A stretch of 64,000 nucleotides of DNA from the NCBI GenBank assembly GCA_021777755.1, contig JAJYDE010000009.1, forward strand, positions 1-64,000. Reading direction: 5' to 3'. This document shows, in pieces, positions 5,241 to 64,000 of this stretch. Made by a program: the position numbers and the translations under genes. The notes below the pieces were generated by a model. It saw nothing but the letters and a program-made list of their open reading frames with translations. It did no database searches and was not told the DNA's origin. Source of the DNA: Deltaproteobacteria bacterium. Lineage in GTDB: Bacteria > Desulfobacterota > Syntrophobacteria > Syntrophobacterales > Syntrophobacteraceae. The stretch's first letter is position 1. Each line of letters starts with the position of its first letter.

Positions 5241-5318
5241 TAATCACGCGCTGGCTTCCATCGAGGCCGGGGCTTTTCCATGCTGAGTAGCAGCGGCTAA
5301 ACAGCCGGACGACCACAT

Positions 5319-5355
5319 ACCCGCCCACAACCCCGAGGGGCGGGTTCCTTTTTTT
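5319..5355 (+). terminator. intrinsic terminator of the island gene run
   Basis: A GC-rich stem (ACCCGCCC pairing with GGGGCGGGT) around a short loop is followed at once by TTCCTTTTTTT. This is a typical rho-independent terminator for the plus-strand small genes. Confidence 0.7.
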
Positions 5356-5570
5356 GGACGTACTTCAAAAATATGGGTTGCCATGAGAACGTGGCTTTAA
5401 AGGCCATTCCAGCACGCCGTTTAGCGGCATATCCGACCTTGAACATCGCCTCACCCTGAAATCCAATTCCCTCCCGATTGTCAACTCGGTCCCTTGTGGC
5501 GGTTCCTTGATTTCATTTCGCCATGGGGGCACGGTCACGTGGAAGTCAGGCCTTCTCATTGCGCCCCAAA

Positions 5571-5594
5571 GGGGTGGACAAACGGGTGGACAAA
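5571..5594 (+). repeat. right 12-bp tandem repeat pair, candidate integrase arm site
   Basis: Two back-to-back 12-bp units, GGGGTGGACAAA and CGGGTGGACAAA, 48 bp inside the right att repeat and in the same orientation as the pair at 1889-1912. Shared core GGTGGACAAA/GTGGACAAA, shared 12-bp period and symmetric placement suggest arm-type integrase or excisionase sites. Confidence 0.45.
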
Positions 5595-5639
5595 ATGCCC
5601 GCTTTTATTTTCCGATGAATTCCATCGTTGCCCGTGGAT

Positions 5640-5727
5640 TGGTGCCTGGGGCGGGAATCGAACCCGCACGGGGGCAAGCCCCAAGGGATTTTAAGTCCCT
5701 TGTGTCTACCTATTCCACCACCCAGGC
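5640..5727 (-). tRNA. tRNA-Leu (UAA)
   Basis: The minus strand folds as a class II tRNA: acceptor stem GCCTGGG pairing with CCCAGGC, a D-arm with GGTAGAC, anticodon stem AGGGA/TCCCT around loop CTTAAAA (anticodon TAA), a long variable arm (TTGGGGCTTGCCCCCGT), a T-arm with GGTTCGATTCC, and an encoded 3' CCA at 5640-5642. Its 3' half is the integration target of the adjacent element and is duplicated at 1715-1772; this copy is intact. Confidence 0.95.
5642..5699 (-). repeat. att direct repeat (right), inside tRNA-Leu
   Basis: The 3' portion of the tRNA-Leu gene, identical to 1715-1772 at 57 of 58 positions. Together they bound a 3.9-kb element. The element restores or retains the full tRNA at this side. 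Confidence 0.85.
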
Positions 5728-5859
5728 CCCGGGGGCATTCCAAGGGGAAAATTAAGACCGGGAAGTCGTCGGCCAACCAGCTCCGGGCAAAAAGATTTAT
5801 CACATTTGACATTTTCAGTCAAAGCTTCGACCGAAACAATGAGGCTCCTTGCCCATGCG

Positions 5860-8310
5860 CTAGGCTTCGGGATTTTCTTTCGGCGCTTTAGCGAGCAGCC
5901 GCACGGTTTGGGCGATCTCTTCGGGAGTTACTTCCCGCCTCAGCCGATCCATTTCGCCCATAAGGGAGGCGAACCGGATGCCCTCGGCGGCACTCACCCA
6001 TTCGAGCCGAAGCCTTTCGGGCCGGATGCCCAGCTTTTCCATTTTCTTGCGTATCTTTTCGACCCGTTTGACCGTCCACTTGTTCGCATCGATGTAATGG
6101 CAGTCGCCGATATGGCAGCCGCTGACAAGGATTACGGGCGCTCCCCGGGCAAAGCCCTCCCATATGAAGGACTCATCGACGCGGCCCGAGCACATCGTGC
6201 GCACCAGCCGGATGCTTGGAGGATACTGCAGGCGAGATACCCCAGCGTAATCGGCCCCGGCATACGAACACCAGTTGCAGGCAAAGACCAGCACCCTTTT
6301 ATCCGCGGCAGGAGTCAGCGCGTTTTCCACCTGCCCCATGATCTGGCGGTCGGTGAAATGGTTCATCACAATGGCATCGAAGGGGCATTCGGCCGCGCAT
6401 GTTCCGCAGCCGGCACAGGCCGCCGGATTAACCGCCGCGGGGAGCTTGCGCTTTACGTCAAGAGAAATCGCCCCGTAGGGGCAGACCTCGACGCATCTGC
6501 CGCAGAACTTGCACTTTTCGGCCTCCACCTCGGCGGTGATCGGTTCGGAAAGCATTTCGCCCCGGTGTAGAAGCCGCGCCACGCGCGCGGAGGCAGCCGA
6601 GCCCTGGGTCACCGAATCCTTTATGTCTTTGGGGCCTTCGGCGCACCCGGCGAAAAAGATGCCCCTCGTTGCCGCATCAACCGGTAGGAGCTTGGGATGG
6701 GCTTCGAGGAAAAAACCGTCCGGGGTGAGCTGCAGCCCGAGCATTTCCTGCAGTCTTTTGGTCGTCTTCGCGGGCTTGAGCCCCACGGCCAGCACCAGCA
6801 TGTCAAGATCGTGAAAGACTATCTTGCCGCTCGCTCCGTTATCGACGGCCACCCGCAGCCCCTTGTCGGCGGACTCCACGACACTTCCCGGCAGCCCCCT
6901 GATAAACTGCACTCCGAGGCTTCGGCTTTTGGTGTATAGATCCTCGAAGCCCTTTCCGAATGCCCGGATATCGATGTAGAAGACCTTGATCTCGATTTCC
7001 GGATGGTGCTCCTTCAAAACGAGCGTGCTTTTTATGGTGTTCATGCAACAGATGTTTGAGCAGTATGAAGCGCCCTTTCTTGCCGAACGGGACCCCACGC
7101 ACTGAACGAAGCCGATCGACTTCGGGAGCTTGCGATCCGAGGGCCTGATGAGTTCGCCTCCGCTCGGACCTCCGGCGCTTACCAGCCGTTCGAATTCCAG
7201 GCTGCTCAGCACATTTTCATGCCGCGTGTATCCGTACTCGTCGAGTTCGGTCGGATCGTAGGCCTCGACCCCGGTGGCCACCACGATGGCGCCCACACTT
7301 TCGACCACTTCCTCATCGGACATATGGAAGTTGATGCACTTTTTCTCGCAGACTTCGGCGCACTTGGCGCATACGACCGGGTTGTGGCCCAGGCACTCGT
7401 TGATATTTATCAGATAGGCCGCGGGCACGGCCTGGGGAAAAGGCGAATGAATGGCCCTTCGCGAGGAAAGACCCGAATTGAACTCATCGGGGCGCACGAC
7501 CGGGCACACCCTGGCGCATTCCCCGCAGGCGGTGCACTCTTTTTCCGAGACGTACCTGGCTTTCTTTAAAATCTTTACTTCGAAGTTTCCCACGTATCCT
7601 TTGACATCGATTATTTCGGAGAGCGTTAGCAGCTTGATATTGGGATGCCGACCGGCATCGGTCATTTTCGGACCGAGTATTCAAATCGAGCAGTCCATGG
7701 TGGGAAATGTCTTGTCGAGGCGCGCCATGTTGCCGCCAATCGATGGACTTTTTTCCACCAGGACCACCTCATAGCCGTTATCGGCAAGGTCAAGGGCCGC
7801 CTGGATGCCTGCAATGCCACCGCCAATCACGAGGGTGCGCTTGTTCAAGGATATTTTTCTGCTCTGGAGGGGCTCAAGCCTGGAGGCCCTGGCCACGGCC
7901 ATTCGCACCAGGTCCACGGCCTTGGCCGTTGCCTCCCCGGGCTCTTTCATGTGCACCCAACTGCACTGTTCCCTGAGATTGGCCATCTCCAGGACGAAGG
8001 CATTGAGGCCGGCGCGCTCGAGCATTTGCCGGAAGGTCGGCTCGTGGAGCCTCGGCGAGCATGAGGCGATCACGATGCGATCGAGCCCCAGTTCGACGAT
8101 GTCTTTGGTTATGGCCTGCTGGCCGGGTTCGGAACAGGCGTACTGAATGTCTCGCGCATGGACCACGTTTTCGAGCGCGGAGACTTCCGCGCTCACCTTC
8201 GGGCAGTCCACCGTCCCGGCAATGTTCAACCCGCAATGGCAGACATAGACCCCGATTCGCGGAGCACCATCATTTGTCGAATTTTTCTTCATCGTTTCAA
8301 TTATTCCCAC
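5860..8310 (-). CDS. hdrA: HdrA-MvhD fusion, selenocysteine-containing (UGA at 7681-7683)
   Basis: Heterodisulfide reductase subunit A-like flavoprotein, 816 aa if the in-frame UGA is read as selenocysteine (residue 210). HdrA carries the FAD at which electrons are bifurcated or confurcated. Order: N-terminal Cys-rich region (VCHCG, ASCSPRLHEPTFR); FAD-binding GGGIAG near 163-168; DCSI-Sec-ILGPKM at 206-216, where most HdrA proteins have Cys; ferredoxin-like Cys sets at 259-265 and 306-325; two [4Fe-4S] motifs at 600-642; and a C-terminal MvhD/FlpD domain (672-816, CNWCSYAGADYAG, CSGRVD, GCHIGDCHY). Reading TGA as a stop would split the protein inside its conserved motif. The start is GTG 8310 (4 codons overlap the upstream gene) or ATG 8292. 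Last gene of the kor-hdr operon. Confidence 0.92.
7644..7659 (-). promoter_or_regulatory. bacterial SECIS-like hairpin of hdrA
   Basis: Starting 21 bases after the UGA codon, the message forms a perfect 6-bp stem, GATGCC and GGCATC, around a four-base GGTC loop. Bacterial SECIS elements lie inside the coding region just after UGA, with an apical loop carrying a G or GU recognised by SelB. The distance from UGA to the loop (about 28 bases) is in the usual range. Confidence 0.75.
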
Positions 8311-9878
8311 TCTATCGTTTTGGCCAGAAGTGAGGTCAAATCCATCATTTCCATGCGAATTTCATTTTCCAAAAACGGGTCTTCCATGGCGCAGGTAAGG
8401 TGAATGCGGCATTTGGGGCATGCGGTCACCAAAAGATTCGCGCCGGTTTGCCGAGCCTGTTTGAGCCGGTTTACCTGCATGGCCTTGGAATAAGAATCGC
8501 ACCCGGTCCAAGCGCAGTTGCCGCAGCACAGCGAAGAGGCGCCGTGGTCGCGCATCTCGGTAAAATCGGCGACTTTCAAACGTTTGAGAAGGTTTCGCGG
8601 CAGTTGGACTCCTTCCTCGGTTCGGCTGAGCCTGCAAGGGTCCTGGAAGGTGATCTTGCGGTTGAGCTTTTTAAATCCGACGGCCCCCTTGCCGATTTCG
8701 GCTTCGGCCAGTTCGAAAATATGGCTCACCTTGAAGCCCGTTTTGATACCGTTTTCGGGATAGTCGCGGGAAAAGGCGCGGTAGCACTCCGGGCAGGCCG
8801 TGACAAGCTCTTCGACGCCCATGTCCGAAATCATCTCGACGTTGAGCCGTGCAAGCCGGATGAAATTTTCCCGGTCCCCCGACCAGAGCAAGTCGTGGCC
8901 GCAGCATCTCTCATTTTGAAGAATCGAGGGACGAATGTCGAAAAAGTTCATGAGCCGCAAGGCATCGAAAAGCGTCTCGCTCGTACTGATGCCCAGATGA
9001 TTTTTAAAAAATGTGTCGAAATAGGGGGCACAGCCTCCGAAGAACAATATCTTGCTCTCCGGATCGGTTTGAATGTCGGAAGGAAGCCCTTCCCAGTGCC
9101 GGACGGGCAACCCCGGAGAGGTCATGGCGCGCATGAGGGAGTGGAAAAAGCCCTCGTGGGCGTTCATCTTCGCGTTTGCCGGGGTCGCGCAGCGCATATC
9201 CTTTATGAAATCGGGGAAACTCACCGCGGAGGGGCACCGGTCGTAGCAAAGACCGCAGGTAAGACACGACCAGATGTCTTCGCGGATGGCAGGCGAGTCG
9301 AGGTCGCCGGCCGCGGCCGCATTGGCTATGGCCCGGGGAGAAAACTGCTTGCCCGTAAGGGCCAGAGGACACGCGGAGGAACATTTCCCGCAGTCCTGGC
9401 AGACATAGACGTTATGGGCCCTGCTGATTTCGTCCGCGGATCGGGCCGAGAGCGAAACCTCAGCGCGGCCCGCGGCAACCACGGGCGTTTTGCCAAGCTC
9501 TCCGATCCTGTTTCGAAAGGCGGTAAGGTAGGCGAGCAACTCCTGGTGCTGATCGGGATTGAAGGACTCGAAACCGAGCCGTTGCTCGCCAAGCCCGAGC
9601 AGGTTCAAAATGCCCCTGGTGTCGTCTATGTTTCTTTGCGCCACCCGGGTCCCGATGCCGTAGCGACAGGCGCCGGCTTCACAGCCCAGCAAAACGACGC
9701 CGTCCGCCCCGGTTTCGAAGGCCTTGAAAAGAAGCGACTTGGTAATTCGCCCGCTGCACGGAATCCTGATCATACGGATTTCCACCGGCAGAGGCGCCAG
9801 GGAGTCCTGAAGCGTCTGGTAGGCGGCGTGCGGGCTCCAGTTGCACAGAAAAAGAACAATTTTCAGGTCGTCATTCAT
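8301..9878 (-). CDS. hdrBC: MvhD-HdrC-HdrB fusion protein
   Basis: A 525-aa iron-sulfur protein that joins three Hdr-type modules. Residues 1-140 resemble MvhD/FlpD (FLCNWSPHAA, PCSGRI, GCEAGACRYG), which receives or hands on electrons. Residues about 165-230 are HdrC-like with two [4Fe-4S] motifs (CQDCGKCSSACP, CLTCGLCYDRCP). The C-terminal half is HdrB-like with two CCG domains (RCCGHD with ACPECY, and LCCGNCAWTGCD with ACPKC), which hold the noncubane clusters at the disulfide-reducing site. It overlaps the upstream hybrid gene by 4 bp and hdrA by 10 bp, so it is co-translated. The real acceptor (a DsrC-like or other disulfide, or a membrane quinone module) cannot be told from sequence. 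Confidence 0.88.
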   Translation of the reverse strand: MNDDLKIVLFLCNWSPHAAYQTLQDSLAPLPVEIRMIRIPCSGRITKSLLFKAFETGADGVVLLGCEAGACRYGIGTRVAQRNIDDTRGILNLLGLGEQRLGFESFNPDQHQELLAYLTAFRNRIGELGKTPVVAAGRAEVSLSARSADEISRAHNVYVCQDCGKCSSACPLALTGKQFSPRAIANAAAAGDLDSPAIREDIWSCLTCGLCYDRCPSAVSFPDFIKDMRCATPANAKMNAHEGFFHSLMRAMTSPGLPVRHWEGLPSDIQTDPESKILFFGGCAPYFDTFFKNHLGISTSETLFDALRLMNFFDIRPSILQNERCCGHDLLWSGDRENFIRLARLNVEMISDMGVEELVTACPECYRAFSRDYPENGIKTGFKVSHIFELAEAEIGKGAVGFKKLNRKITFQDPCRLSRTEEGVQLPRNLLKRLKVADFTEMRDHGASSLCCGNCAWTGCDSYSKAMQVNRLKQARQTGANLLVTACPKCRIHLTCAMEDPFLENEIRMEMMDLTSLLAKTIEWE

Positions 9879-12800
9879 TTGTGAACTATTTCTTCTATGG
9901 CCTGTTCAAGGAAACGTCTTTCCCGATAGGGGCTGTCAGCGGCCCCCGAGGGACAAATCGAAATACAGTTGCCACAGCCCTTGCAAAGCGCCTGATCGAC
10001 CACGGCATAGCCCGAGCGCGGAGGATGATTGGCGTGAAAGCTTATGGCCTGATAGGGACAAACCTTGACACAGCGGCCACAACCTCTGCAAAGTTCACCG
10101 TCTATGGCAACCGTGTAGCCCTTGTTTTGTCTCGGGCCGCGGGGCATGACGGTGGCCGCGAGAATTCCGGCGGCCTCGCCCTTAAGCCGTTCGGAGACAT
10201 TGACTCCCGGAGGGGCGGCCAAAAGCAGCCCCGGGATGGAGGTCGCACCCGGGACGAAAAACGGCACGCCCAAACGGCCTTTTGCCTGCATGGAGCATTC
10301 GACCCCGTGCGGGGGCATATCCGGGTGAGGCATATAGGCCATGGTTTTTCGGGATCTTTCGCCCAGGATTACCGCCCCGGCGCTGAAAACCTGGTGAGTC
10401 GAGTCCTCCAGCTTGACGATGACCTGGAAGTCTCCGACGGTGCCCTTTAAAGACCGGGCGCTGGAGCCCGGAAAGGGGTGAACGTTGGGGTAGTCGGGTG
10501 AGCAAGACAACGGCCTGTCCCGGCCACCGAACAGGAAGACTTCCATGCCCATCTGCCCCAGGGTCTGGGCGCTTCTCAAGGCGGCTTCGGACTCGCCGAT
10601 CACCGCGGTGGTAAAATTGTACTTGCGGGCCGGAGGAGGAAGCGATTTGAGTTTTGCCGCCCGCCGGATCGACCTTTGCAAAAGCCCTTCGAAGCGGTTC
10701 AAGGCAAGAGGGCGGTCGGAGCCCAACAAGGCGAGTGCTTCGCCTCGCAGGTTGCAGGTTTCCGCCATTGCCCGCGGAACGCCGGTTCCATGGAAAATAG
10801 CGTCCTTGAGCCTGCTGCGCTGATCGGTGCATGCCCCGCAAACCAGGTCGAGGGGGCAGCAGACGCAAGAAGCCAGGACGAAGCGCGTCAGCCCCTTTTC
10901 CCGAATGGTGCGCAGGATTGCGGCCGTCCCTTCGGCCGTACAGGCCGAGGGAATCGATTCGGCATGCTCGACGCCGCAGTTTTCAGGCAGATATGATATC
11001 AAGGCGTCCAGTTCGGGGTCCCAGCCAAGGGAATCGTTGCAGCGGCACACGAAAACCCCGATTTTGAGTTCGGGAGAAAGCTGCGGTTCGGGAGGCGAAA
11101 ACATCATACCGCCTCCTTTCAGACGCGCGCCGCCGTCTCCGAGCAAAAGCGCGGCCTGGGCGGCGGCGGCGAATCCGCGCTGCATCATGGCGAAAACATC
11201 GGGCCGGATGGCTTTCGGGCTGTAGGCCCGGATGACGTCTTCTCCTTTGACGCTTGGCGCAAGAGCGGGGTCGGTGACAATCACCACCCCCGCGTGTTCG
11301 ATCTCTTCGCAGGCAACATCGGACTGAATGAGCGCCCCGGCCGCGGGACAGGCCTCCACGCACCGGCCGCATTCCGAGCAGACTCCGCATTGCAGGCATC
11401 TGGCGGCCTCGGCTCTGGCCTGCTCATCGCCAAACCCCAGCATCACTTCGGTTTCAAGCTGCAGGCGCAAAGCGGGGTTTCGCTCGGACATCATGGCGCG
11501 CGGCACGGAGGGGATCTCGGCGGAAATTTCGGGGTAATCGAATTCGAGCGGCCTGACGAAAAGGCTCTTTTCGAAGACCTCCTGCTGCGGAGCAAGAAAT
11601 TTGTGTACGGCCTTTGCGGCCGCCCGCCCCGAGGCCATGGCGGCCACCACCGTCGAGGGTCCGCTCACCGCGTCTCCGGCGGCAAAAACCTTGCCCACGC
11701 GGGTTTCGCAGTTCTCCCCGACCCGTATGAGTCCGGAGGCCGAGGCAAAGCCTTCTCCATAACCCTCCCAGATCAATCGGTTCGCCGTCTGGCCTATGGC
11801 CACCACGGCACGATCGAATTCGATCACGACCGGTTTTGCCCCCTTGACCGCAACGGGCCACGGGATTCCATTCTTATCCGGGGGGCCGGGAACGGTTGGA
11901 ACAAAACGGATGGCGTTAAGCCTTCCGCCCTCACCCAGAAACTCGGCGGCCCGCAGACTGGTCTTTATCGATATGCCTTCTTTTGCCGCCTCCTCGACCT
12001 CGTGCTCATCGGCCGGAATGAGTTCGCCGGGAAACCAGGATACAAGTGTCACGCTCGCCCCGAGACGCGCCAGAGTCCGTGCGGTTTCAAAAGCCGAATT
12101 GCCGTCTCCCAGGACCGCGGTTTTTCCCGAAAGCGACTTGATTTGCCCCCGGTGCACGGAGGAAAGAAAGGAGACGCAGCCGGAAACGCCTTCCAGGTCT
12201 TCACCCGGGGCGCCGATGATGCGATCTTCCCACAGTCCCGTGGCCAAAACGACGGCCGAGAACTTCGCCGAGTCGGCGGGTCTGAATTCGCATCCCGTTT
12301 GGAACCGGGCTCCAAGCTCGCCAAGGTAGGCGATTTCCCGGTCGATCACCTCGCGCGGAAGCCGGTGCGCCCCGATGCCGTAGCGCAAAAGTCCGCCCGG
12401 GGCTTTTTCCTTTTCGAAGACCGTGACCTGATAGCCGCGACGTACAAGCTCGGATGCCGCAGCCAGTCCCGCGGGTCCCGAGCCCACAACCGCGACCGTT
12501 TCCACTCGCGGCTTTGCCGGACTACTCCCGAAGGGCGTCCGCGGATTTTGGTCGGCAACGAACCGTTTTATGTCGCGAATGGCCAGGGGTTCATCGACGG
12601 CGGCCCTGCGGCATGCGGCCTCGCAGGGATGGGTGCAGACCCTGCCGCATATGCCCGGCAAGACGTTGTCTTTTCTGATCAATTCGAGCGCCTCGGCATA
12701 CTTGCCCGCACGGGTGAGGGCCATGTAGCCCTGGACGTTCACCCCCAGGGGGCAATTGGCCTGGCAAAGAGGGGTCATGCGCTTATCGATCGCGGGTCTT

Positions 12801-13228
12801 CCGGGAAGAGCCTGCCTGCCGTTGAATTTTATCGGTTTTCGACCATCGGGCAGGGTTGCCGGGCAGGCCTGCAGGCAAAGGCCGCAAAGCGTGCACTTCT
12901 CCCCGTCGGTATAAGTGGGCGTTTGGCTGTAGCGAATCGAAAAACCTTGCGGCGTGTGCTTGATGGCTTTTACCGAAGCGGGAAGGATGAGCCGTGCCCG
13001 GCGGTTTCTCATTATCCTCAGAAGTCCGGGACGCATGGCGTAGTTGAACCCCACCCCGGAGTCCATCCTCCAGGCCTGCGAGGAGAGCTTTTCATTAAGA
13101 TCGGCGGCCTTATCGATCAGCGTCACCGGTATGCCCATCTCGCCAAGCTTGTTGGCCGCAGCGATTCCGGCGGGTGTTGCGCCTATGATGCACACCTTTT
13201 GAAGGCGTTCCCTGGGGTCTTTCATCAA
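9875..13228 (-). CDS. HdrA/NfnB-like hybrid iron-sulfur flavoprotein, 1117 aa
   Basis: A very long multi-domain oxidoreductase. Visible in order: an N-terminal HdrA-like FAD segment (IIGATPAGIAAANKLG, residues 14-29); a [4Fe-4S] motif CTLCGLC near 112; a GltD/NfnB-type unit (about 150-565) with N-terminal Fe-S helices (CQANCPLGVNVQGY, GRVCTHPCEAACRR), an FAD motif VVGSGPAGLAA and a C-terminal AAGDAVSGPSTVVAAMASG; a Cys-rich linker CLQCGVCSECGRCVEACP; a second HdrA-like part beginning IGVFVCRCND; and two C-terminal ferredoxin motifs (CRGCGRCVKVCP, CKGCGNCISICP). NfnB/GltD units oxidise or reduce NAD(P)H, so this could join pyridine nucleotides to the Hdr complex. It overlaps the next gene by 4 bp. 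The architecture, but not the reaction, is clear. Confidence 0.85.
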   Translation of the reverse strand: MMKDPRERLQKVCIIGATPAGIAAANKLGEMGIPVTLIDKAADLNEKLSSQAWRMDSGVGFNYAMRPGLLRIMRNRRARLILPASVKAIKHTPQGFSIRYSQTPTYTDGEKCTLCGLCLQACPATLPDGRKPIKFNGRQALPGRPAIDKRMTPLCQANCPLGVNVQGYMALTRAGKYAEALELIRKDNVLPGICGRVCTHPCEAACRRAAVDEPLAIRDIKRFVADQNPRTPFGSSPAKPRVETVAVVGSGPAGLAAASELVRRGYQVTVFEKEKAPGGLLRYGIGAHRLPREVIDREIAYLGELGARFQTGCEFRPADSAKFSAVVLATGLWEDRIIGAPGEDLEGVSGCVSFLSSVHRGQIKSLSGKTAVLGDGNSAFETARTLARLGASVTLVSWFPGELIPADEHEVEEAAKEGISIKTSLRAAEFLGEGGRLNAIRFVPTVPGPPDKNGIPWPVAVKGAKPVVIEFDRAVVAIGQTANRLIWEGYGEGFASASGLIRVGENCETRVGKVFAAGDAVSGPSTVVAAMASGRAAAKAVHKFLAPQQEVFEKSLFVRPLEFDYPEISAEIPSVPRAMMSERNPALRLQLETEVMLGFGDEQARAEAARCLQCGVCSECGRCVEACPAAGALIQSDVACEEIEHAGVVIVTDPALAPSVKGEDVIRAYSPKAIRPDVFAMMQRGFAAAAQAALLLGDGGARLKGGGMMFSPPEPQLSPELKIGVFVCRCNDSLGWDPELDALISYLPENCGVEHAESIPSACTAEGTAAILRTIREKGLTRFVLASCVCCPLDLVCGACTDQRSRLKDAIFHGTGVPRAMAETCNLRGEALALLGSDRPLALNRFEGLLQRSIRRAAKLKSLPPPARKYNFTTAVIGESEAALRSAQTLGQMGMEVFLFGGRDRPLSCSPDYPNVHPFPGSSARSLKGTVGDFQVIVKLEDSTHQVFSAGAVILGERSRKTMAYMPHPDMPPHGVECSMQAKGRLGVPFFVPGATSIPGLLLAAPPGVNVSERLKGEAAGILAATVMPRGPRQNKGYTVAIDGELCRGCGRCVKVCPYQAISFHANHPPRSGYAVVDQALCKGCGNCISICPSGAADSPYRERRFLEQAIEEIVHK

Positions 13229-13816
13229 TCAGCCCTGTTCTTTGCTTTCGTGTTTTGCGGCGGCCTTCTTCGTCCTGGCCTTGAGCATCGCCCGGCCTAA
13301 ATCGTAGCCCTTGTTGAAGGCGGCCAGATTGGTCTTTTCAGTCCCCTTGGGCACCGAATCGGCCACGGAGGAGAGCATCCCCTCCAGGGAAACCGCTTCG
13401 GTAACCGAGGTAACAAAGCCCAGCATGACGATATTGGCCATCATTTTTCTACCCAGTTCCTCGGCCATGCGGGTCGCCGGAACGGGGAACACATCCCCGC
13501 TTACGCTCTCCACCGAGCGCACCATGTCCTGATCGACGATCAGCGTTCCTTCATGTTTGAGCATGTTTCGATATTTTTCATAGCCGCTTTGCGACATGCA
13601 TACCAGGATATCGGCATTGCGTACGTAAGGGTAATGGATCTTGGCGTCCGATATGATCAACTGGGCACTACAGGCCCCGCCTCGCGCCTCGGGCCCGTAG
13701 GACTGGGTAAAACTGGCCTCCAGGTGGTCGGCAAGACAGGCCGCAAGACCCAGCACCTGGCCGGCAAGCACGATGCCCTGCCCTCCCAGGCCCGTTATCA
13801 GGATCTCTTTTCTCAA
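13229..13816 (-). CDS. korC: 2-oxoacid:ferredoxin oxidoreductase gamma subunit
   Basis: Gamma subunit of a four-subunit 2-oxoacid:ferredoxin oxidoreductase, 195 aa. The start is the TTG at 13816 (LRKEILITGLGGQGI), 10 bases after the korB stop and preceded by a G-rich site; the longer open frame overlaps korB and is rejected. Family marks are GLGGQGIVLAG, QSYGPEARGGACSAQ and a Rossmann-like fold. The subunit helps bind CoA and contacts the alpha subunit. It is followed immediately by the hybrid flavoprotein gene. The C-terminus is Lys/Ala-rich and variable. Substrate is probably 2-oxoglutarate by similarity of the whole set, but branched or aromatic 2-oxoacids are not excluded. Confidence 0.85.
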   Translation of the reverse strand: MRKEILITGLGGQGIVLAGQVLGLAACLADHLEASFTQSYGPEARGGACSAQLIISDAKIHYPYVRNADILVCMSQSGYEKYRNMLKHEGTLIVDQDMVRSVESVSGDVFPVPATRMAEELGRKMMANIVMLGFVTSVTEAVSLEGMLSSVADSVPKGTEKTNLAAFNKGYDLGRAMLKARTKKAAAKHESKEQG

Positions 13817-13826
13817 CTGCGCCCCC

Positions 13827-14648
13827 CTAATTGCTGATGATTCTAGCGTAATTTTGCTCGAAAGTAGGCCGGTCATAGTCGACGAACTTGCCAAGCGTTA
13901 TTCCCTGCTCCAGGTCGAGAATCGTCTCGGCGGGGTTGGCGCCGTTTTTAACGATCGCCTTTTCCTGGTAGATCCTTAGCAGATCGCTGTTTTTGAGCTT
14001 GTTTTTGCGGCCGAAGCCGGTTGGACAAGGGGCCAGCACCTCGATGAAGGAAAAACCGGTGTGCATCAGGGCCTCGGTTATCGACTGGGTGAGATCCCGG
14101 GTGTGAAGCATCGTCCAGCGAGCGATGTAGGTCGCCCCGCTCGCGTAGGCGAGCAGCGGCAGGTTGAAGGGGACCTCGGGATTTCCCATCGGCGTGGTCG
14201 ATGTCTTGGCAAGGTGCGGGGTGGTCGCGGCCGCCTGCCCCCCCGTCATACCGTAGTTGAGATTGTTTACGCAGATCACGGTGAGATCCATGTTGCGCCT
14301 GGCCGCGTGGATGAAATGATTGCCTCCGATGGCGAAAAGGTCCCCGTCGCCGCTGAACACCACCACGGTAAGCTCCGGCTTGGCGAGCTTCATACCGGTG
14401 GCGAAAGGAATCGCCCGGCCGTGGGTGGTATGGTAGGAGTCGAGATTGACATAGCCCGCCCCTCTTCCCGAACAGCCGATTCCGGAGACTACCGCAGTCT
14501 TCATCGGATCGGTCCCCGTTGAGCTTATGGCGATAAGAGCGGAGGAAAAGACCGTGCCTATCCCGCAACCGGGACACCAGATGTGCGGTATGCGGTCGGT
14601 CCTTAGCAGTCCGTCAAGCGGATGTTTTGGAGTTGTGCCGGTGTTCAT
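13827..14648 (-). CDS. korB: 2-oxoacid:ferredoxin oxidoreductase beta subunit (TPP-binding)
   Basis: Beta subunit, 273 aa, which holds thiamine pyrophosphate and a [4Fe-4S] cluster. Seen: HIWCPGCGIGTVFSSA near the N-terminus (cluster Cys and TPP site), GIGCSGRG, the TTHGRAIPFATGMKLA segment and the GDGDLFAIGGNHF TPP/Mg motif with downstream NNLNYGMTGGQ. These match KorB/OorB proteins of 2-oxoglutarate oxidation (oxidative decarboxylation to acyl-CoA, CO2 and reduced ferredoxin). Ten bases separate it from korC, and about 93 bases from korA. Confidence 0.92.
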   Translation of the reverse strand: MNTGTTPKHPLDGLLRTDRIPHIWCPGCGIGTVFSSALIAISSTGTDPMKTAVVSGIGCSGRGAGYVNLDSYHTTHGRAIPFATGMKLAKPELTVVVFSGDGDLFAIGGNHFIHAARRNMDLTVICVNNLNYGMTGGQAAATTPHLAKTSTTPMGNPEVPFNLPLLAYASGATYIARWTMLHTRDLTQSITEALMHTGFSFIEVLAPCPTGFGRKNKLKNSDLLRIYQEKAIVKNGANPAETILDLEQGITLGKFVDYDRPTFEQNYARIISN

Positions 14649-14741
14649 GGAATATCCCTCAGCCGAATTTATCCTGTAGGTCCTGTTCGATCCACGGGAC
14701 CAACGGGTTTACAGGTCCGGAAGGACCAATTGCACTTGCCT

Positions 14742-15905
14742 TTATTTGCCCTGGACCCTACCGGCCAGTTCCTCGATGTTTGCCAATATCTCTTCGGGGG
14801 TGATCGCCGAGCCTCCGGCGTGACCGACAAGAATTGCGGGGGCCATTCCCCTGGCGCATCGTTGGACTTCCAGGTGAATCTGCCCGAGGTTGAGTTCCAC
14901 CGTGATGAACCCCTTGACTCTGCTTGCAAGCTCGCAAACGATCTCTTCCGGAAAGGGCCAGACAGTCAAGAGCCTGAAAAGCCCCGCCTTGATTCCCTTC
15001 TCGCGCGCCTCGTCAACGGCGGCCTGGCTGCTGCGGGAGCTTATCCCGTAGGATACCAGGGCGATATCGGCATCCTCCAGACGATATTTTTCCACCTGGA
15101 TGATCTTGTCGAGATTTCTGCGGACCTTTCCGGTGATACGTTCCATCATTTCGGCCTGCGCCTCGGCGGTCATCACCGGGTAGCCCCTCTCGTCATGGGT
15201 AAGGCCGGTGAAGTGCACCATGTAGCCCTCACCGGCGTGAGCCATGGGGGCCACCCCGTTGGGGCCGGGCTGAAAGGGCTTGAAGCGGTCCTTTCTTCCC
15301 TTGGGCCGAGGGCGGGAGTGGAGCTTGATTTTCGCCGGATCGGGAATGATCACCCGCTCGCTCAGGTGGCCCACGATCTCGTCGGCCATGATGAGCACCG
15401 GAATCCGATAGGTCTCGCTCAGGTTGAAGGCCGTGATGGTCTGGTAGAAGATCTCCTGGGGCGAGGAGGGGGCCAGCGCTATGATCTCATAGTGACCATG
15501 GGAACCCCACCTGGCCTGCATCATGTCGCCCTGGGCACCAAGAGTCGGCAGACCCGTCGACGGGCCCGCCCGCTGCACGTTGACCAGAACGCAGGGGGTC
15601 TCGATCGCTATGCCCAGACCGATATTTTCCATCATAAGGCTGAAGCCCGGCCCGGAGGTGGCGGTCATGCTTTTCACCCCGGCGCAGGAGGCGCCAAGGA
15701 TTGCCGCCATGGCGCTAATTTCGTCTTCCATCTGGATAAAGACTCCCCCGACGCGCGGAAGCCTTTTGGACATGTGCTCGGCAACCTCTGTTGCGGGGGT
15801 GATGGGGTAGCCGGCAAAAAAACGACATCCCGCAGCCAGCGCGCCTTCCGCGCATGCCACGTCGCCATTGAAGAAATGTTCTCCGGTAAGAACCGCTGGT
15901 TCCAT
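14742..15905 (-). CDS. korA: 2-oxoacid:ferredoxin oxidoreductase alpha subunit
   Basis: Alpha subunit, 387 aa, forming the pyrimidine-binding half of the TPP site. The ATG at 15905 (MEPAVLTGEHFFNGDVACAE) is chosen because the longer open frame runs into korD. Motifs include FAGYPITPATEVAEHMSKRL, QMEDEISAMAAILGAS, TSGPGFSLMMENIG and QRAGPSTGLPT, all typical of KorA/VorB. The C-terminal domain (about 250-387) matches the family's domain II. The start lies 8 bases after the korD stop. Confidence 0.92.
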   Translation of the reverse strand: MEPAVLTGEHFFNGDVACAEGALAAGCRFFAGYPITPATEVAEHMSKRLPRVGGVFIQMEDEISAMAAILGASCAGVKSMTATSGPGFSLMMENIGLGIAIETPCVLVNVQRAGPSTGLPTLGAQGDMMQARWGSHGHYEIIALAPSSPQEIFYQTITAFNLSETYRIPVLIMADEIVGHLSERVIIPDPAKIKLHSRPRPKGRKDRFKPFQPGPNGVAPMAHAGEGYMVHFTGLTHDERGYPVMTAEAQAEMMERITGKVRRNLDKIIQVEKYRLEDADIALVSYGISSRSSQAAVDEAREKGIKAGLFRLLTVWPFPEEIVCELASRVKGFITVELNLGQIHLEVQRCARGMAPAILVGHAGGSAITPEEILANIEELAGRVQGK

Positions 15906-15913
15906 AAGAAGAC

Positions 15914-16198
15914 TCACTTGCTCGAATCGAAAACCGGCCGCACCGGGGCCTCCACCGAATAGATGGCGAAGTCCGGGCAGACAGCCTCGCAGTAGTGACA
16001 GTTGACGCACAAGTCGGGCTGCTTCACCTCCGGGGGGTGATACCCCTTGTTATTGAACCGGCCGGAAGCCTCCAAAACCCCTCTCGGGCAATAGTCGATG
16101 CAATAGCCGCACCCCTTGCACCGTTCCTCTATGATGTGGACCACTCCCCTGGTGACGACAATTTGTTCGGTATCGAGGGGAACACGCCAGAATTTCAT
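15914..16198 (-). CDS. korD: 2-oxoacid oxidoreductase ferredoxin-like delta subunit
   Basis: A 94-aa ferredoxin-like subunit with two [4Fe-4S] motifs, CKGCGYCIDYCPRG and CVNCHYCEAVCPDF. It passes electrons out of the KorAB core. First gene of the minus-strand run korD-korA-korB-korC and then the three Hdr genes, so the promoter should lie in 16199-16560. Having the ferredoxin subunit as a separate gene is usual for Kor/Vor enzymes. Confidence 0.9.
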   Translation of the reverse strand: MKFWRVPLDTEQIVVTRGVVHIIEERCKGCGYCIDYCPRGVLEASGRFNNKGYHPPEVKQPDLCVNCHYCEAVCPDFAIYSVEAPVRPVFDSSK

Positions 16199-56859: not shown

Positions 56860-57807
56860 TCACACGTGGTTTCTCAACTGAAGTTCGGCGGGGTGGGGAT
56901 CCAGATAGCACTGCTCCTGGAGATAGGGCTGTTTGTATTTGCGAACGTAGTGTTTGAGAAGAGCAAGGGGAACGACGAGCGGGAAATACCCGTTGTAGTA
57001 TTGATCCATTATTTCGTTCAGCTCCAATTTTTCGTCCGGAGTCAACTGTTTTTTGAAATAGCCCATGATATGCTGAAGCACGTTCGTGTTTTTCTTGACG
57101 CTCGATTTTAACCGCAGACCCTCCATGAGCATTTTTTCATACTGGCTGAAGAGTTTGTCGGCGGGGATTTCCCCGGCCCTGGCGACCAGTTTTCCCATCT
57201 CGTTTGCAACCTTGGGGCTGTGGGCCATCATCTGCAGTTTGTGCCGGCTGTGGAATTCAATCAGGCACGCGGTTTTGCGCCCCTTCTCCAAGCTCTCCCG
57301 CCATCTTTTCAGGGCGAAAATACGTTCGATAAAATTCTCGCGAAGTTCGGGATCATGCAGCCTTCCTTCGTCTTCAACCGGGATGAGGGGGAAATGTGTC
57401 ATGAATGCCCGGGCAAAGATGCCGACCCCGATTTTATGCGGCACCCCCTTTTCATCCAGCACCCTCACCCGCTCCATGCCGCTGCTGGGCGAGTTGCTCT
57501 TGAATATGAACCCGAAGAGGTTTTCCGATTCGAGTTCTCTCACTCTCCGGTCGGCCCAAACGAGCATGCGGTCGGTTAGATCCGTTTTCGTTCGCGTAGT
57601 CACCAGGCGAGGCGCACCGGGGTTCCCCTCGAGGTGCATGGATTCCCGGGGTGTTTTCAAACCGCATTCGACCTCCGGGCACACCGGCATATAATCGAAA
57701 TACCGCCCGAGGGTATCTTTCAAAAACCGGTCGAGTTTGTGGCCGCCGTCATATCTGACCGGCTCGCCCAAAAGACATGTACTGATGCCCAATTTGATCT
57801 TGTCCAT
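56860..57807 (-). CDS. DUF523 and DUF1722 protein (YbgA-like)
   Basis: A 315-aa protein with an N-terminal DUF523 domain (about 5-150: LGISTCLLGEPVRYDGGHK, VCPEVECGL, FIFKSNSPSSG) and a C-terminal DUF1722/YbgA domain (about 185-315: FHSRHKLQMMAHSP, LQHIMGYFKKQLTPDEK, PLALLKHYVRKYKQPYL). Two Cys near each end of DUF523 suggest metal or redox function. Proteins with both domains occur widely; a thiouridine or tRNA-related role has been suggested for DUF523 relatives, but this is not shown. Confidence 0.85.
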   Translation of the reverse strand: MDKIKLGISTCLLGEPVRYDGGHKLDRFLKDTLGRYFDYMPVCPEVECGLKTPRESMHLEGNPGAPRLVTTRTKTDLTDRMLVWADRRVRELESENLFGFIFKSNSPSSGMERVRVLDEKGVPHKIGVGIFARAFMTHFPLIPVEDEGRLHDPELRENFIERIFALKRWRESLEKGRKTACLIEFHSRHKLQMMAHSPKVANEMGKLVARAGEIPADKLFSQYEKMLMEGLRLKSSVKKNTNVLQHIMGYFKKQLTPDEKLELNEIMDQYYNGYFPLVVPLALLKHYVRKYKQPYLQEQCYLDPHPAELQLRNHV

Positions 57808-58032
57808 CGTTTGACAAGCCTCCGGGACAGAGTATCGAAAAACTCCACCTCTTCAGGTTGGACAGGGCTTCCGAAAATTTTCACGGCCCTGACAATCAAT
57901 TTAAGACTTTCATCCATTCTACCGATATTTCTTTTTACCGAAACAAGAAATGGAGAAAAGATGGCTGCGAACCGATACTCATACTTTTGGGATTCGCAAA
58001 TCGACGACCTGTGTTCAAAAAAGGAGGTCTGC

Positions 58033-61000
58033 ATGTCCAAAACATCCCGCATTGCCACATTAGCCCTTGGAGCACTGTTTTGGCTCCTCCTGTCGGCGGC
58101 CGTCAACACCGCGTTCGCAACCGGGGCAATTGCCATCAATGAAAACGACAGGCTGGTTCTTCCCGGCAATGTACATCCGGCGGCAAAGCCTCAGAACGAT
58201 ATCGGGCGAGCCAACGCCCAGTCGCCCGAGAGCCGGATGATTCTCCTGCTGAAGCTTTCCCCGGACAAGCAGGCGGCGCTCGACAAGTTTAGTGCCGAAC
58301 AGCTCGACAAGTCTTCGGCCAACTATCATCACTGGCTCACCCCGGAAGAATTCGGCAAACGGTTCGGGCGAAGCCCCGCAACGGTCGCCCGTGTAAAAGG
58401 CTGGCTCGTCTCGCACGGGTTCAATGTCCAGCAGGTGGCCAAGGGCGGCAACTGGATAAATTTTTCGGGCACGATCGGCCAGGTCGAGAGCACCTTTCAT
58501 ACACAAATTCACAAATACCTGCTCAACGGAAAGACTTATCACGCCAACTCGACGGATCCCTCCATTCCAAGGGCGCTTGCCGACGTCGTGGCCGGCCCGG
58601 TATCTCTTAATAATTTTCCGATCAAAACCCGGCCCAAGCCCCAATATTACGATCCGAACAAGGGCTCGTACGAGCTATCGCCCTACGATTTTTATCAAGT
58701 CTATAACGTTCCCACTTCGAGCTACTCGGGTGCGGGGGTGACGATCGCCATTGCGGGAGATACCACCTCGACCAGTTGGCCGGCCGACTGGGACAGTTTC
58801 CGCTCGAACTTCAACCTGCCGGCAAACACCCCCACGATCATCTGCAACCCTGCCAACACCTGCCCCGCCAACAGCCCCGACGACGAGTACGAGTCGGACC
58901 TCGATGTCGAATGGGCCGGCGCCGTGGCTTATGGAGCCACCATCGACTATGTCACCTCGCAAAGCACGAACTCCAACCTGGGAGTGGATTTTTCGTCTCA
59001 ATACGTTGTCGATAACAAACTGGCGCCCATACTAAGCGAGAGCTACGGCGTTTCCGAACTCGACATGGGTACAACCTGGTGCGCCTTCTACAACACGATC
59101 TGGCAGCAGGCCGCCGCCGAGGGGATCACGGTTTTCGTTTCTTCCGGCGACCAAGGGGCCTATATGAGCATGACCAGTTCGATTTCCGTAAACGGCATGG
59201 CCTCCACCCCTTACAACGTCGCGGTGGGCGGAACCGAATTCGCCAACCAGTCATCGTCTTCCTTCTCGAACTACTGGAATTCGAACGGCTATGCCATCGG
59301 CTACATACCGGAGACATGCTGGAACGACGGCTATGACAGCAACGGGAAATTATGGGCCTCCGGCGGCGGGGTCTCGACTCTTTACACCAAGCCGGCGTGG
59401 CAGGTGTGCCCCGGGGTGCCCACCGACGGCATGCGCGATATGCCCGACGTCTCCCTGGATGCCTCCAACAATGTCGGCTACGAGGTCATGATACAGGGCG
59501 CACTGCAGGATATTGGCGGCACATCGGCTTCATCGCCGTCACTTGCCGGCATCATGGCGCTCATCGTTCAAAATCTTGGCGGCGCCTGGCAGGGAAACGC
59601 GAATCCTGTTTTCTACCAACTGGGCAATGCTCAGTACAGCGGAACACAAGGCGCAAGCGTCGTTTACCACAACATAACCACGGGCGACAACGGCTATTAT
59701 GCAAGTGGGCCCGGCTACAACCAGACCACCGGCCTGGGCTCGGTGGACGCGACAGCTCTGATCCATGCCTTTACCCCGCTCCAGGGCGGATCCGTCACGG
59801 TTACGATCACCCCCGCGGCGGCAGTAAGCGCCGGGGCCATGTGGGCGGTGGACGGGGGTTCGTGGAACACGAGCGGTTCAACCGCTTCGAGCCTAAGCGC
59901 AGGATCTCACACGGTCAGTTTCGAAACCATTTCCGGCTGGACAACGCCAGGCAGTCAGACGGTCTCGGTCACCGCAGGACAAACCACCTCGGTCACCGGA
60001 ACCTACACACAAACACAGAACGCCGCTTGCGGAAGCAGTAGCGGCGGCGATTTCTATTCCGCCCCGACCTCGAATCTTTGCAGCTCCGGCAACGCTTCAC
60101 AGGTGACAAACAACGGGTCGGGTTCGTGGGTTTGGAGTTGTGCCGGAACAAACGGCGGATCAAACGTAGCCTGCTCGGCCGGCGTCGAGGCAAACGGCGC
60201 CTGCGGGAGCAGCAGCGGCGGCAGTTTCACTTCCGCTCCAAGCAGCAATCTTTGCTCGGTCGGGACCTCCACCCAGGTCCTCGGTTCCGGCCCGTGGACA
60301 TGGAGCTGCCAGGGATTAAACGGCGGGACCAATGCCAACTGCTCCGCCAGCCTCAGTGGAGGATGCGGCTGGGCAAACGGCCAGAGTTTCTTCAAAACTC
60401 CTCCATCAAGCGAGCTTTGCATTTCCGGGAAAGCTTCAAGGCTCTCCGGAAGAGGTCCCTGGTATTGGACCTGCACAGGATCGAACGGAGGCGGTACGCA
60501 GAGCTGTTCGGCAAATCTCGAAGTCAACGGCCTCTGCGGTGCGGCGAGCGGAAAGGCTTACTTCTCGGCCCCCACATCGAGTCTTTGCAAATCCGGCACG
60601 GCTTCTTCGCTCACAGGGTCCGGACCATGGGGCTGGACCTGCCAGGGGATAAACGGGGGTACGAGTTCAAGCTGCTCGGCAACACTCAAGGTGAACGGAA
60701 CGTGCGGTTCGGCAAACAAGGGTAATTTCTTTACGCAACCGGATTCGAGCCTGCTTTGTAACTCCGGCAATCCCTCCTCGGTTGTAACAACGCGAGGACT
60801 GTTTCAATGGAGATGCGCAGGTTCAAACGGCGGCAGCAGCAGAAGCTGTTCAGCCAAACAGGAAATAAACGGCGCATGCGGTTACGCAAATGGAGCGAGT
60901 TTCCTGAAGGTCCCTCCCCTGCAGAGCCTTTGCAGCGCGGGCAAAGCTTCCAGAGTTGTCGGGAAAGGCCCCTGGAGCTGGAGCTGCGCGGGATCAAACG

Positions 61001-61038
61001 GAGGCGGCACGGCCAGTTGTTCGGCTCAGCTGCAGTAG
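58033..61038 (+). CDS. secreted S53 peptidase (sedolisin) with six Cys-rich repeats
   Basis: A 1001-aa exported serine-carboxyl peptidase, active at acid pH in characterised relatives. The signal peptide (ALGALFWLLLSAAVNTAFA) follows an AAGGAGG site. A Pro-kumamolisin propeptide (about 40-190) precedes the S53 domain (about 200-570): Glu/Asp in YESDLDVEWAGA, oxyanion Asp in SSGDQGAY, nucleophile Ser in GGTSASSPSLAG. A linker with SVTVTITPAAAV follows, then six repeats of about 55 residues (663-1001), each with four Cys and the pattern ACG...LC...GPW.WSC.G.NGG...CSA. These repeats look like a surface adhesin or binding stalk. The ATG at 58033 is chosen over a longer frame that covers the divergent neighbour. 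Confidence 0.9.
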   Translation: MSKTSRIATLALGALFWLLLSAAVNTAFATGAIAINENDRLVLPGNVHPAAKPQNDIGRANAQSPESRMILLLKLSPDKQAALDKFSAEQLDKSSANYHHWLTPEEFGKRFGRSPATVARVKGWLVSHGFNVQQVAKGGNWINFSGTIGQVESTFHTQIHKYLLNGKTYHANSTDPSIPRALADVVAGPVSLNNFPIKTRPKPQYYDPNKGSYELSPYDFYQVYNVPTSSYSGAGVTIAIAGDTTSTSWPADWDSFRSNFNLPANTPTIICNPANTCPANSPDDEYESDLDVEWAGAVAYGATIDYVTSQSTNSNLGVDFSSQYVVDNKLAPILSESYGVSELDMGTTWCAFYNTIWQQAAAEGITVFVSSGDQGAYMSMTSSISVNGMASTPYNVAVGGTEFANQSSSSFSNYWNSNGYAIGYIPETCWNDGYDSNGKLWASGGGVSTLYTKPAWQVCPGVPTDGMRDMPDVSLDASNNVGYEVMIQGALQDIGGTSASSPSLAGIMALIVQNLGGAWQGNANPVFYQLGNAQYSGTQGASVVYHNITTGDNGYYASGPGYNQTTGLGSVDATALIHAFTPLQGGSVTVTITPAAAVSAGAMWAVDGGSWNTSGSTASSLSAGSHTVSFETISGWTTPGSQTVSVTAGQTTSVTGTYTQTQNAACGSSSGGDFYSAPTSNLCSSGNASQVTNNGSGSWVWSCAGTNGGSNVACSAGVEANGACGSSSGGSFTSAPSSNLCSVGTSTQVLGSGPWTWSCQGLNGGTNANCSASLSGGCGWANGQSFFKTPPSSELCISGKASRLSGRGPWYWTCTGSNGGGTQSCSANLEVNGLCGAASGKAYFSAPTSSLCKSGTASSLTGSGPWGWTCQGINGGTSSSCSATLKVNGTCGSANKGNFFTQPDSSLLCNSGNPSSVVTTRGLFQWRCAGSNGGSSRSCSAKQEINGACGYANGASFLKVPPLQSLCSAGKASRVVGKGPWSWSCAGSNGGGTASCSAQLQ

Positions 61039-62013: not shown

Positions 62014-62769
62014 TCAAGAGATCCGGCCCGTCAGCCTCAGCAGGCCGTCAAGGATGGCAAGCGGGCTTGGCGGACATCCGGGAATGTGGAGATCGACGGG
62101 GAGCAGCCCCCCCGCCCCGTTATGGACTTCTTCATGATCGATGAAGGGTCCTCCCGATATGGCGCACGAACCGACCAGGATGACCACTTTGGGTTCGGGC
62201 ACGGCCCGGTAGGTCTTGAGCAGGGCAAGACGCATGTTTTCAGAAACCGGCCCGGTTATGAGCAGTCCGTCCGCATGTCTGGGGGAGGCCACGAATTGAA
62301 TACCAAAACGGCCCAGGTCCCAGCCGACGGTTCCCAGCACATTGGTGTCGGCTTCGCACGCGTTGCATCCTCCGGCGCTTACCTGGCGAAGCTTTAAAGA
62401 TTTTGCGAAAAGCCGCTTTGCCCCGGCCGCCACGATCTGGCCCGCGGGCCTTTCGGGGGCGGCAACAACCAGGTTTTCTCGACTGGATTCGGCCACCCGG
62501 TAGTCGTTTGAAAAGATAATGGCCCGCGAGGGGCACAGGGGGGCGCAAGCGCCGCAAAAAAGGCATTTGCCCAGATCGATTCCGAGGGGATTTCGGAGGA
62601 CGGCGCCGGTCGGGCAGACTTGTTCGCACAGGCTGCAAGCCGGATCGCACTTTTCCGCAAAAACGGCGGGCCTTCCCTGATAGCGGTCGGAGAGCGCGGG
62701 CGGGGGGCCGTCGGGAAATTCAATGGTACGATGTTTCTGTTGCAACCTGGCCCAGAGGATATCGAGCAT
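62014..62769 (-). CDS. energy-converting hydrogenase-related small subunit, ferredoxin fusion
   Basis: A 251-aa protein: an N-terminal ferredoxin-like domain (about 30-90) with two [4Fe-4S] motifs (CDPACSLCEQVCP and CLFCGACAPLCP), and a C-terminal NuoB/HycG domain with the proximal-cluster Cys in GGCNACEADTN, VGSCAISGGPF and PGCPPSPL. Subunit of a membrane complex related to group 4 hydrogenases and complex I. It follows the large subunit gene by 25 bases. Fusion of ferredoxin and small subunit is known in Ehr/Hyf-type systems. Confidence 0.85.
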   Translation of the reverse strand: MLDILWARLQQKHRTIEFPDGPPPALSDRYQGRPAVFAEKCDPACSLCEQVCPTGAVLRNPLGIDLGKCLFCGACAPLCPSRAIIFSNDYRVAESSRENLVVAAPERPAGQIVAAGAKRLFAKSLKLRQVSAGGCNACEADTNVLGTVGWDLGRFGIQFVASPRHADGLLITGPVSENMRLALLKTYRAVPEPKVVILVGSCAISGGPFIDHEEVHNGAGGLLPVDLHIPGCPPSPLAILDGLLRLTGRIS

Positions 62770-62794
62770 AAGAACACACCTTCGTTAATGTCTG

Positions 62795-64000
62795 TTACAG
62801 ATCATGGCCGCAGTAGGACAGATTGAAACTCTTGTTGCAGAGCGGGAAATCGGATATCTGCTGCCCTCTTAGCGCATAGGCCAGTGCGAACCAATTATGG
62901 AAGGAGGGATCGACGACCTTGTAGCGGGCGAATTTTCCCTGTGAATCGGTAAGAGCCACGTGGCAAATTTCTCCCCTCCAGCCTTCGACAAGGGATACGG
63001 CGATGCGACCGGGTTGAAGCGGCCGAGGAGAGAGCTGCGCAGCCCCGCCGGGAAGGCCTCGCAACTGCTCGCGCAGGAAGGCCACCGACCTCTGGATTTC
63101 AAGCCATCGCACGTAACCGCGCGCGAAAACGTCACCAGTCGGGCAGGTGGATACGGGGATCTGGTAGAGCTGAAAGATGGAGTGGGGCATATCGCGGCGG
63201 ATATCCTGTTCGACCCCGCAGGCCCGGGCGGCCGGGCCGACCAACCCCATTGCAAGGCAATCCCGCCTCAGGATCGTCCCCGTTCCTTCGAACCGGGCCA
63301 TAACGGAGGAAGAATTCCACAGCAAACCGACCGCGACAGAGAGGTCTTTTTCGAGCAGATCGAGGCGCCGGAGCAGTTCATCGCGCCTGTCGCCGTCAAT
63401 ATCGAAACCGATCCCCCCCGGTCTTACCAGGCCGCGGCCGAAGCGGTTTCCGCAGATAAGGGCACTCATGTTGAGCACGTCTCCCCGAATGCGGCCGCAG
63501 TAGGAAAGGGTGGGAAGGTAGCCCACATCGCCCGCGAGAGCCCCGAGGTCTCCGGTGTGATTTGCGATGCGCTCCAGTTCGAGGGCCACGCCGCGAAGCA
63601 CTTGAGCTTTCGCCGGGGTCGATGTTGCCGAAAGGGCCTCGGTCAACTCGCTGTAGGCGAGGCTGTGCCCCACGGAGGTGTCTCCGGACAGGGTTTCCAT
63701 GTAATGGATGGTGCGCCGGTCGGGTCCGCCCGCAAGCTTTCGCTCCACTCCGCGGTGCTGGTAGCCAAGCGAGATTTCGAGGTGAAAAACATTTTCCCCG
63801 TGGCACTGAAATCGAAAGTGGCCGGGTTCGATGATCCCGGCGTGAACCGGGCCGACCGCGACCTCGTGGACCTCGCAACCCTCGATGCCGAAAAAATCGG
63901 TCACGCCGATTTCCGGCAAGGGCTCGGCGCGGCCTTGCGAGGCTTGCCCGTAGGGGGCGTGAAACCGGATGGGCTTCAGCCACGGATGTCCGCAGGGCTT
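62795..64000 (-). CDS. energy-converting hydrogenase-related large subunit (partial, 5' end beyond window)
   Basis: Partial gene; the frame stays open to the window edge. The first residues seen (KPCGHPWLKPIRFH) look like the end of a NuoC-like domain, then a NuoD/HycE domain follows (GPVHAGIIEPGHFRF, HLEISLGYQHRGVE, LSYCGRIRGDVLN). In true group 4 hydrogenases the N-terminal motif carries two Ni-binding Cys (CGxC). Here it is SGDTSVGHSLAY (codons near 63688-63677), so both Cys are replaced, and the C-terminal motif is LSYCGHDL rather than DPCxxC. It should not bind NiFe: an Ehr-type relative working as an ion- or electron-coupling module is more likely. A TTG at 63919 was the only start-like codon in the window. 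Confidence 0.8.
   Translation of the reverse strand, partial: KPCGHPWLKPIRFHAPYGQASQGRAEPLPEIGVTDFFGIEGCEVHEVAVGPVHAGIIEPGHFRFQCHGENVFHLEISLGYQHRGVERKLAGGPDRRTIHYMETLSGDTSVGHSLAYSELTEALSATSTPAKAQVLRGVALELERIANHTGDLGALAGDVGYLPTLSYCGRIRGDVLNMSALICGNRFGRGLVRPGGIGFDIDGDRRDELLRRLDLLEKDLSVAVGLLWNSSSVMARFEGTGTILRRDCLAMGLVGPAARACGVEQDIRRDMPHSIFQLYQIPVSTCPTGDVFARGYVRWLEIQRSVAFLREQLRGLPGGAAQLSPRPLQPGRIAVSLVEGWRGEICHVALTDSQGKFARYKVVDPSFHNWFALAYALRGQQISDFPLCNKSFNLSYCGHDL

Follow-up and report, generated by a model that had tools for sequence, protein, structure and literature searches.

An Ehr-type, non-[NiFe] membrane complex with a fused small subunit and an adjacent HTH–EIIA gene in a deltaproteobacterial genome

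In four papers (PMC6349859, PMC10284858, PMC12342949, PMC4378227), Ehr complexes are described as relatives of the group 4 hydrogenases that lack the CxxC motifs and whose function is unknown. An Fe–S arm mounted on an ion-pumping membrane module is common to the P. furiosus complexes MBH and MBS and to the complex analysed here; MBH holds a [NiFe] site, which the latter lacks, and E21 of its large subunit MbhL is the key glutamate for proton reduction (PMC7684303). The best solved match is E. coli FHL/hydrogenase 4 (HycE/HyfG; 7z0s), which has the same subunit types, proximal-cluster motif and E21-type glutamate, but here the Ni-binding cysteines, the cleaved C-terminal tail and the formate dehydrogenase genes are missing. 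Complex I (T. thermophilus Nqo4 and the host's own NuoD copies) is alike in fold and also has no Ni site, whereas the operon described here lacks NuoEFG. As in published Ehr complexes, a group 4-like large subunit without CxxC is encoded among Hyf/Nuo-like neighbours; unlike them, the present complex has a small subunit in which HyfH and HyfI are fused, an HTH–EIIA gene before the operon and a clade-specific C506.

The window (the whole stretch of DNA analysed; 64,000 nucleotides, G000:C34:1-64000) belongs to a host genome of 4.21 Mb, and its end cuts through the six-gene Ehr-type membrane complex, which comprises hyfB, hyfC, hyfE, hyfF and the genes for the large (LS) and small (SS) subunits. 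Since the contig runs beyond the window end (to 115,025 bp), the genes cut there could be completed. The open reading frames at 62014–62769 and 62795–64000 on the minus strand proved to be real, the latter being truncated by the window end, and the search for neighbouring NuoH/L/M/N-like membrane genes that an earlier sequence-only reading had proposed located HyfB, HyfC, HyfE and HyfF past the window edge. The genes (coordinates on contig C34, best models from Pfam/NCBIfam) are, in the direction of transcription:

69523–70215, minus strand: HTH plus PTS-EIIA gene, taken from the conserved start MQLDL; first in the direction of transcription
67465–69486, minus strand: hyfB; best model hydrogenase-4 subunit B
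66519–67460, minus strand: hyfC; NADHdh (NuoH) match
65873–66517, minus strand: hyfE; best model hydrogenase-4 subunit E
64374 to ~65876, minus strand: hyfF; best model hydrogenase-4 subunit F
62795–64324, minus strand (3' part, 62795–64000, in the window): LS, HyfG/NuoC-NuoD-like
62014–62769, minus strand: SS, 251 amino acids; Oxidored_q6 with an N-terminal Fer4/NuoI-like region

LS comprises 509 amino acids from the start MSMSVATS (residue numbers follow a 510-residue frame) and matches Complex1_49kDa (PF00346, E = 3e-37) and Complex1_30kDa (PF00329, E = 4e-6). The following sites were located in it:

63827–63829, minus strand: E167, equivalent to MbhL E21; kept throughout the relatives (97% or more)
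63677–63688, minus strand: SGDT (residues 214–217) in place of CGxC, by alignment
62798–62836, minus strand: C-terminal signature NKSFNLSYCGHDL replacing DPCxxC; end of the protein, with no cleavable tail

Alignment to hydrogenase large subunits confirmed that SGDT stands for CGxC and that DPCxxC is absent, as had been read from the window, so that neither RxCGxC nor DPCxxC of the group 4 [NiFe] hydrogenases is found in LS. SGDT lies opposite CGIC of E. coli HycE, of P. furiosus MbhL and of the host's own hydrogenase, and opposite DYLH in Nqo4; NLSYCG aligns with DPCYSC/DPCISC of the hydrogenases. All four Ni ligands are thereby replaced (S214, T217, S504 and G507). The complete LS contains 12 cysteines and no CxxC, which rules out that the cysteines lie in the upstream part missing from the window. 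A second copy with the cysteines, also named beforehand as a possible objection, does exist, but only in a separate complex encoded on contig C38, a true [NiFe] type whose large subunit has CGIC and DPCISC and is ~30% identical to LS. NuoD-type copies of complex I are encoded on contigs C26, C4, C76 and C102.

Among 81 LS sequences from many phyla, position 214 is Ala in 72, Ser in seven and Cys in two, position 217 is Thr, Ser or Ala, and G215 and D216 are 100% conserved. SYxGxDL is conserved to 95–100% and the C-terminal signature is rarely altered, a degree of conservation far above what chance would give. The invariant or near-invariant new residues of the chamber are D216, K499, S504, Y505, C506, H508 and D509; C506 becomes Ser or Ala in aerobic Ehr lineages and is thus a feature of the clade, not a general Ehr trait. 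As judged from these alignments, the LS chamber resembles that of a hydrogenase stripped of its metal and furnished with new conserved residues, because the Ni ligands are replaced while E167 and the hydrogenase-type spacing of the proximal cluster are kept. A Foldseek search with a structure model of LS returned HycE as the best match and complex I (Nqo4) as the next. Pocket geometry was not read from the model, whose pLDDT was 76 overall but fell under 50 in the pocket loops.

Relatives of LS were found in at least 528 genomic stretches, and in the best 80 of these matches the motif loss, the SS fusion and the gene order largely hold; the synteny EIIA-B-C-E-F-LS-SS recurs across loci. The closest named relatives (65–80% identity) are Deltaproteobacteria/Desulfobacteraceae MAGs. 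Plasmids of Rhizobium, Paraburkholderia, Rhodococcus, Allomeiothermus and Variovorax encode homologues that have NKSF..(S/N)Y(C/S/A)GxDL in common and carry SGDT or a near variant at the place of CGxC. The LS tree unites these homologues with the focal set in one clade of 31 rows (support 100/97), separate from complex I and from group 4 [NiFe]; within it, the focal clade joined with Variovorax copy 1 is supported at 100/99. The C38 large subunit groups with the group 4 [NiFe] enzymes and complex I. The tree therefore does not place LS among the [NiFe] hydrogenases, the outcome that would have spoken against the original proposal. The description of such complexes as intermediates between hydrogenases and complex I was not borne out, complex I and [NiFe] group 4 lying together opposite Ehr across a 100/99 branch, although the deep joins bring long branches together and their order is unsure.

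Taken with the co-encoded group 4/complex I-type membrane subunits, the absence of both CxxC Ni motifs and the separate clade agree with what had been proposed, and the assignment as an Ehr-type, non-[NiFe] complex is well supported from sequence, the family name being given by the fit to the Ehr of the literature and the Ehr side of the tree being made up of the focal set and the plasmid homologues. A third type of large subunit lacking the cysteines (SGTS; C-terminal ATFGLSNA) is encoded next to Hyf-like genes in genomes of the same genus (G003:C333 and G001:C185; L157 9328-10926, L158 10237-11853) and falls further out in the tree.

SS consists of a HyfH/NuoI-like two-[4Fe-4S] domain fused to a HyfI/NuoB-like domain, a fusion present in 76 of 76 loci; the ferredoxin-type part had been missed previously. 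Three [4Fe-4S] binding motifs are recognizable in the sequence:

62533–62649, minus strand: two [4Fe-4S] motifs, CxxxCxxCxxxC and CxxCxxCxxxC (C41–C79); conserved 92–100%
62356–62367, minus strand: proximal-cluster motif C135xxC138 (GGCNACE), by alignment
62164–62166 and 62074–62076, minus strand: C202 and C232, completing the proximal cluster

The claim that the small subunit keeps its cluster cysteines was correct, all 12 being conserved. GGCNACE has the spacing of E. coli HyfI/HycG and differs from the tandem CC found in complex I and from the shorter MBS version. The plasmid-borne aerobic relatives have NuoB-only small subunits, and the ferredoxin-type domain is hence dispensable in some Ehr. 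Tandem Ehr operons were observed on Variovorax sp. PBL-E5 plasmid 3 (L125/L154), one with a fused and one with a NuoB-only SS, and at L224 (G386:C13).

The fused SS and a dedicated HTH–EIIA gene distinguish the focal clade as a variant of Ehr and together provide a simple genome-annotation marker that separates it from other Ehr. Neither the fusion nor an HTH–EIIA gene before the operon was found described in the Ehr literature searched.

Charged residues of the membrane-arm subunits (NuoL/M/H-type), sites known for carrying ions among them, are conserved to at least 95% (63–68 loci): E140, K221, K298, K349 and E404 of HyfB, E140, K228 and K307 of HyfF, and E129, E137, E198 and E218 of HyfC. 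Their retention speaks for an active pump, short of proof. A second hyfB-like antiporter gene within the operon, observed or implied by spacing, occurs at L067, L076, L079, L091, L095, L100, L105, L111, L112, L114, L116, L119 and L122 (the last from the culturable Pontiella sulfatireligans), and suggests that one sub-clade has an additional ion-pumping subunit.

The best explanation, which we hold to be rather probable, is a group 4-like redox-driven ion pump that is not a hydrogenase, is probably fed by ferredoxin and is under PTS control. Electrons of low potential, with reduced ferredoxin as their most likely source, would enter the two-cluster domain of SS and move on to the proximal cluster. 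A small acceptor other than H+ would then be reduced in a chamber formed by LS, SS and HyfC and lined, at the former Ni site, by D216, S504, Y505, C506, H508 and D509, and the redox energy would power ion export via HyfC/HyfE/HyfB/HyfF. Ferredoxin is a plausible donor, the one basis for it being the fused dicluster domain.

One version of this explanation specifies the acceptor site: a reductase of another small acceptor, resembling MBS, working at a re-tooled site by way of either the proximal cluster or the new residues D216, C506, H508 and D509. This we regard as possible but doubtful. Invariant new polar residues do occupy the place of Ni, and MBS, a sulfane sulfur reductase which acts on polysulfide and has also lost Ni cysteines (two are kept), is a precedent for a change of acceptor upon Cys loss (PMC7684303). 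The proximal motif of MBS is, however, three residues shorter and holds three cysteines, while the motif found here has hydrogenase spacing and all four, and E21 is missing in MBS but present here. Moreover, other Ehr lineages have Ser or Ala in place of C506, and no sulfur genes are linked to the operon in the flanks of 80 loci.

A stripped, Fpo-/NDH-like complex I acting as a ferredoxin:menaquinone oxidoreductase is an unlikely alternative. The arm and chamber resemble those of complex I, and the window genome encodes MqnC, MqnA/D and UbiA-type genes, but the quinone ligands His38 and Tyr87 of Nqo4 are replaced by Ile166 and Gly215 in LS, and the proximal cluster has CxxC instead of the tandem CC of cluster N2. 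Among 29 host genomes, strong MqnC matches were found in 12, MqnA/D in 13 and MenD in one; 15 have no clear MqnC, MqnA/D or MenD marker, though some have MenB-like crotonases, and two have no UbiA-type prenyltransferase at all. For any one genome such absences could be MAG gaps, yet all 29 yielded PTS Enzyme I. The absent quinone ligands and the missing menaquinone markers thus argue against a quinone as the general acceptor, as far as sequences can tell, with other quinones possible.

It is very improbable that the complex is a [NiFe] hydrogenase with unusual ligands: its fold and E21 equivalent are kept and FHL HycE is its nearest solved relative, but none of the 81 sequences retains the four-Cys Ni site, LS has no CxxC, and H2 did not raise Ehr expression in Nitrospira moscoviensis (PMC12342949). 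A degenerate, functionless remnant, to which the lost active-site cysteines might point, is refuted by conservation, with open frames, near-invariant motifs over many phyla and retained pump residues and gene order, and can practically be dismissed. The residue survey speaks against H2, against quinone chemistry of the complex I kind and against sulfur chemistry of the MBS kind, and it singles out residues for mutation.

A gene with HTH_17 and PTS_EIIA_2 domains lies 5' of the operon in 55 of the 62 loci with enough upstream DNA (the HTH_17 score of 25.7 is slightly below the Pfam cut-off of 27); it is absent from the other seven and from the complete genome G024. These loci span about a dozen phyla (Desulfobacterota/Myxococcota, Planctomycetota, Acidobacteriota, Latescibacterota, Verrucomicrobiota, Zixibacteria, Lentisphaerota, Kiritimatiellota, Elusimicrobiota, Omnitrophota, Riflebacteria and Spirochaetota), and the gene was also present in 17 of ~25 further planctomycete loci with upstream DNA, some overlapping with the first set. 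Full-length HTH–EIIA occurred in seven of nine Ehr-positive versus one of 50 Ehr-negative relatives (Fisher p ~8e-7, not corrected for kinship). As in PtsN/EIIA(Ntr)-type regulators, the EIIA domain carries the phospho-His (His139, E. coli PtsN His73) and the second active-site His (His186, His120), both in 57 of 57 sequences; unlike PtsN, the protein adds an N-terminal excisionase-type HTH and is encoded beside Ehr. Enzyme I, detected by its N-domain in all the Ehr hosts, was found in seven of 14 controls, and in the window genome it is encoded adjacent to HPr on contig C6. A search for a shared sigma-54 promoter upstream of EIIA gave one match in 55 against 1.3 expected from base shuffling.

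We infer from these sequences that the Ehr operon is regulated by the PTS. In the explanation preferred here, the upstream HTH–EIIA, phosphorylated on His139 by Enzyme I and HPr, would switch transcription of the operon, which would then track the PEP/energy state of the cell. The fuller proposal, of an ion pump set by the PTS via HTH–EIIA in which the pocket (GD and NKSFNLSYCGHDL) would be catalytic for an acceptor other than H+, quinone or polysulfide, is advanced only tentatively. No mention of a pairing of Ehr with HTH–EIIA was found in the literature searched. This neighbour is a new clue to Ehr control, and as Ehr is widespread it offers a testable handle (growth conditions, PTS mutants). 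At L156 (G055:C339, 4740-7167) a 34% identical HTH–EIIA without Ehr precedes a ClC-like channel gene, and HTH–EIIA proteins may have a broader role in serving ion transporters. An HPr-family gene (L129, 757-1020) lies ~2.7 kb from the Paraburkholderia Ehr operon.

The suggestion that the ferredoxin is made by Kor found no support in the gene order, as Kor lies at ~13.2–16.0 kb, ~46 kb from the operon, with FlpD/HdrA-like genes next to it. Clustering of the non-operon ORFs that flank the 80 Ehr loci showed no recurrent enzyme family, and a linked oxidoreductase partner (formate dehydrogenase, CODH or Kor) was accordingly dropped. The region 5860–16010 of the window (minus strand) holds Kor-like POR genes (PF01855, PF02775, PF01558) followed by FlpD/HdrA/HdrBC-like and GltD-like proteins (525–1117 amino acids), possibly a ferredoxin/flavin electron-transfer or bifurcation cluster.

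At L106 (Planctomycetaceae OFTM22, 3-12371), EIIA-LS-SS is directly followed, with no hyfBCEF in between, by genes for DabA, for one DabB-like and a second NuoL-like protein, and for a SulP transporter that carries a P-II domain; an Ehr/CO2-uptake hybrid was rejected as a singleton, since neither the remaining 79 loci nor a further 35 planctomycete loci contained DabA. Close to aerobic Ehr operons, genes for universal stress protein and spermidine synthase are found repeatedly. Downstream of the operon in the window, at 57634–61038 on the plus strand, lies a large gene for a peptidase of the pro-kumamolisin type, whose C-terminal repeats are Cys-rich.
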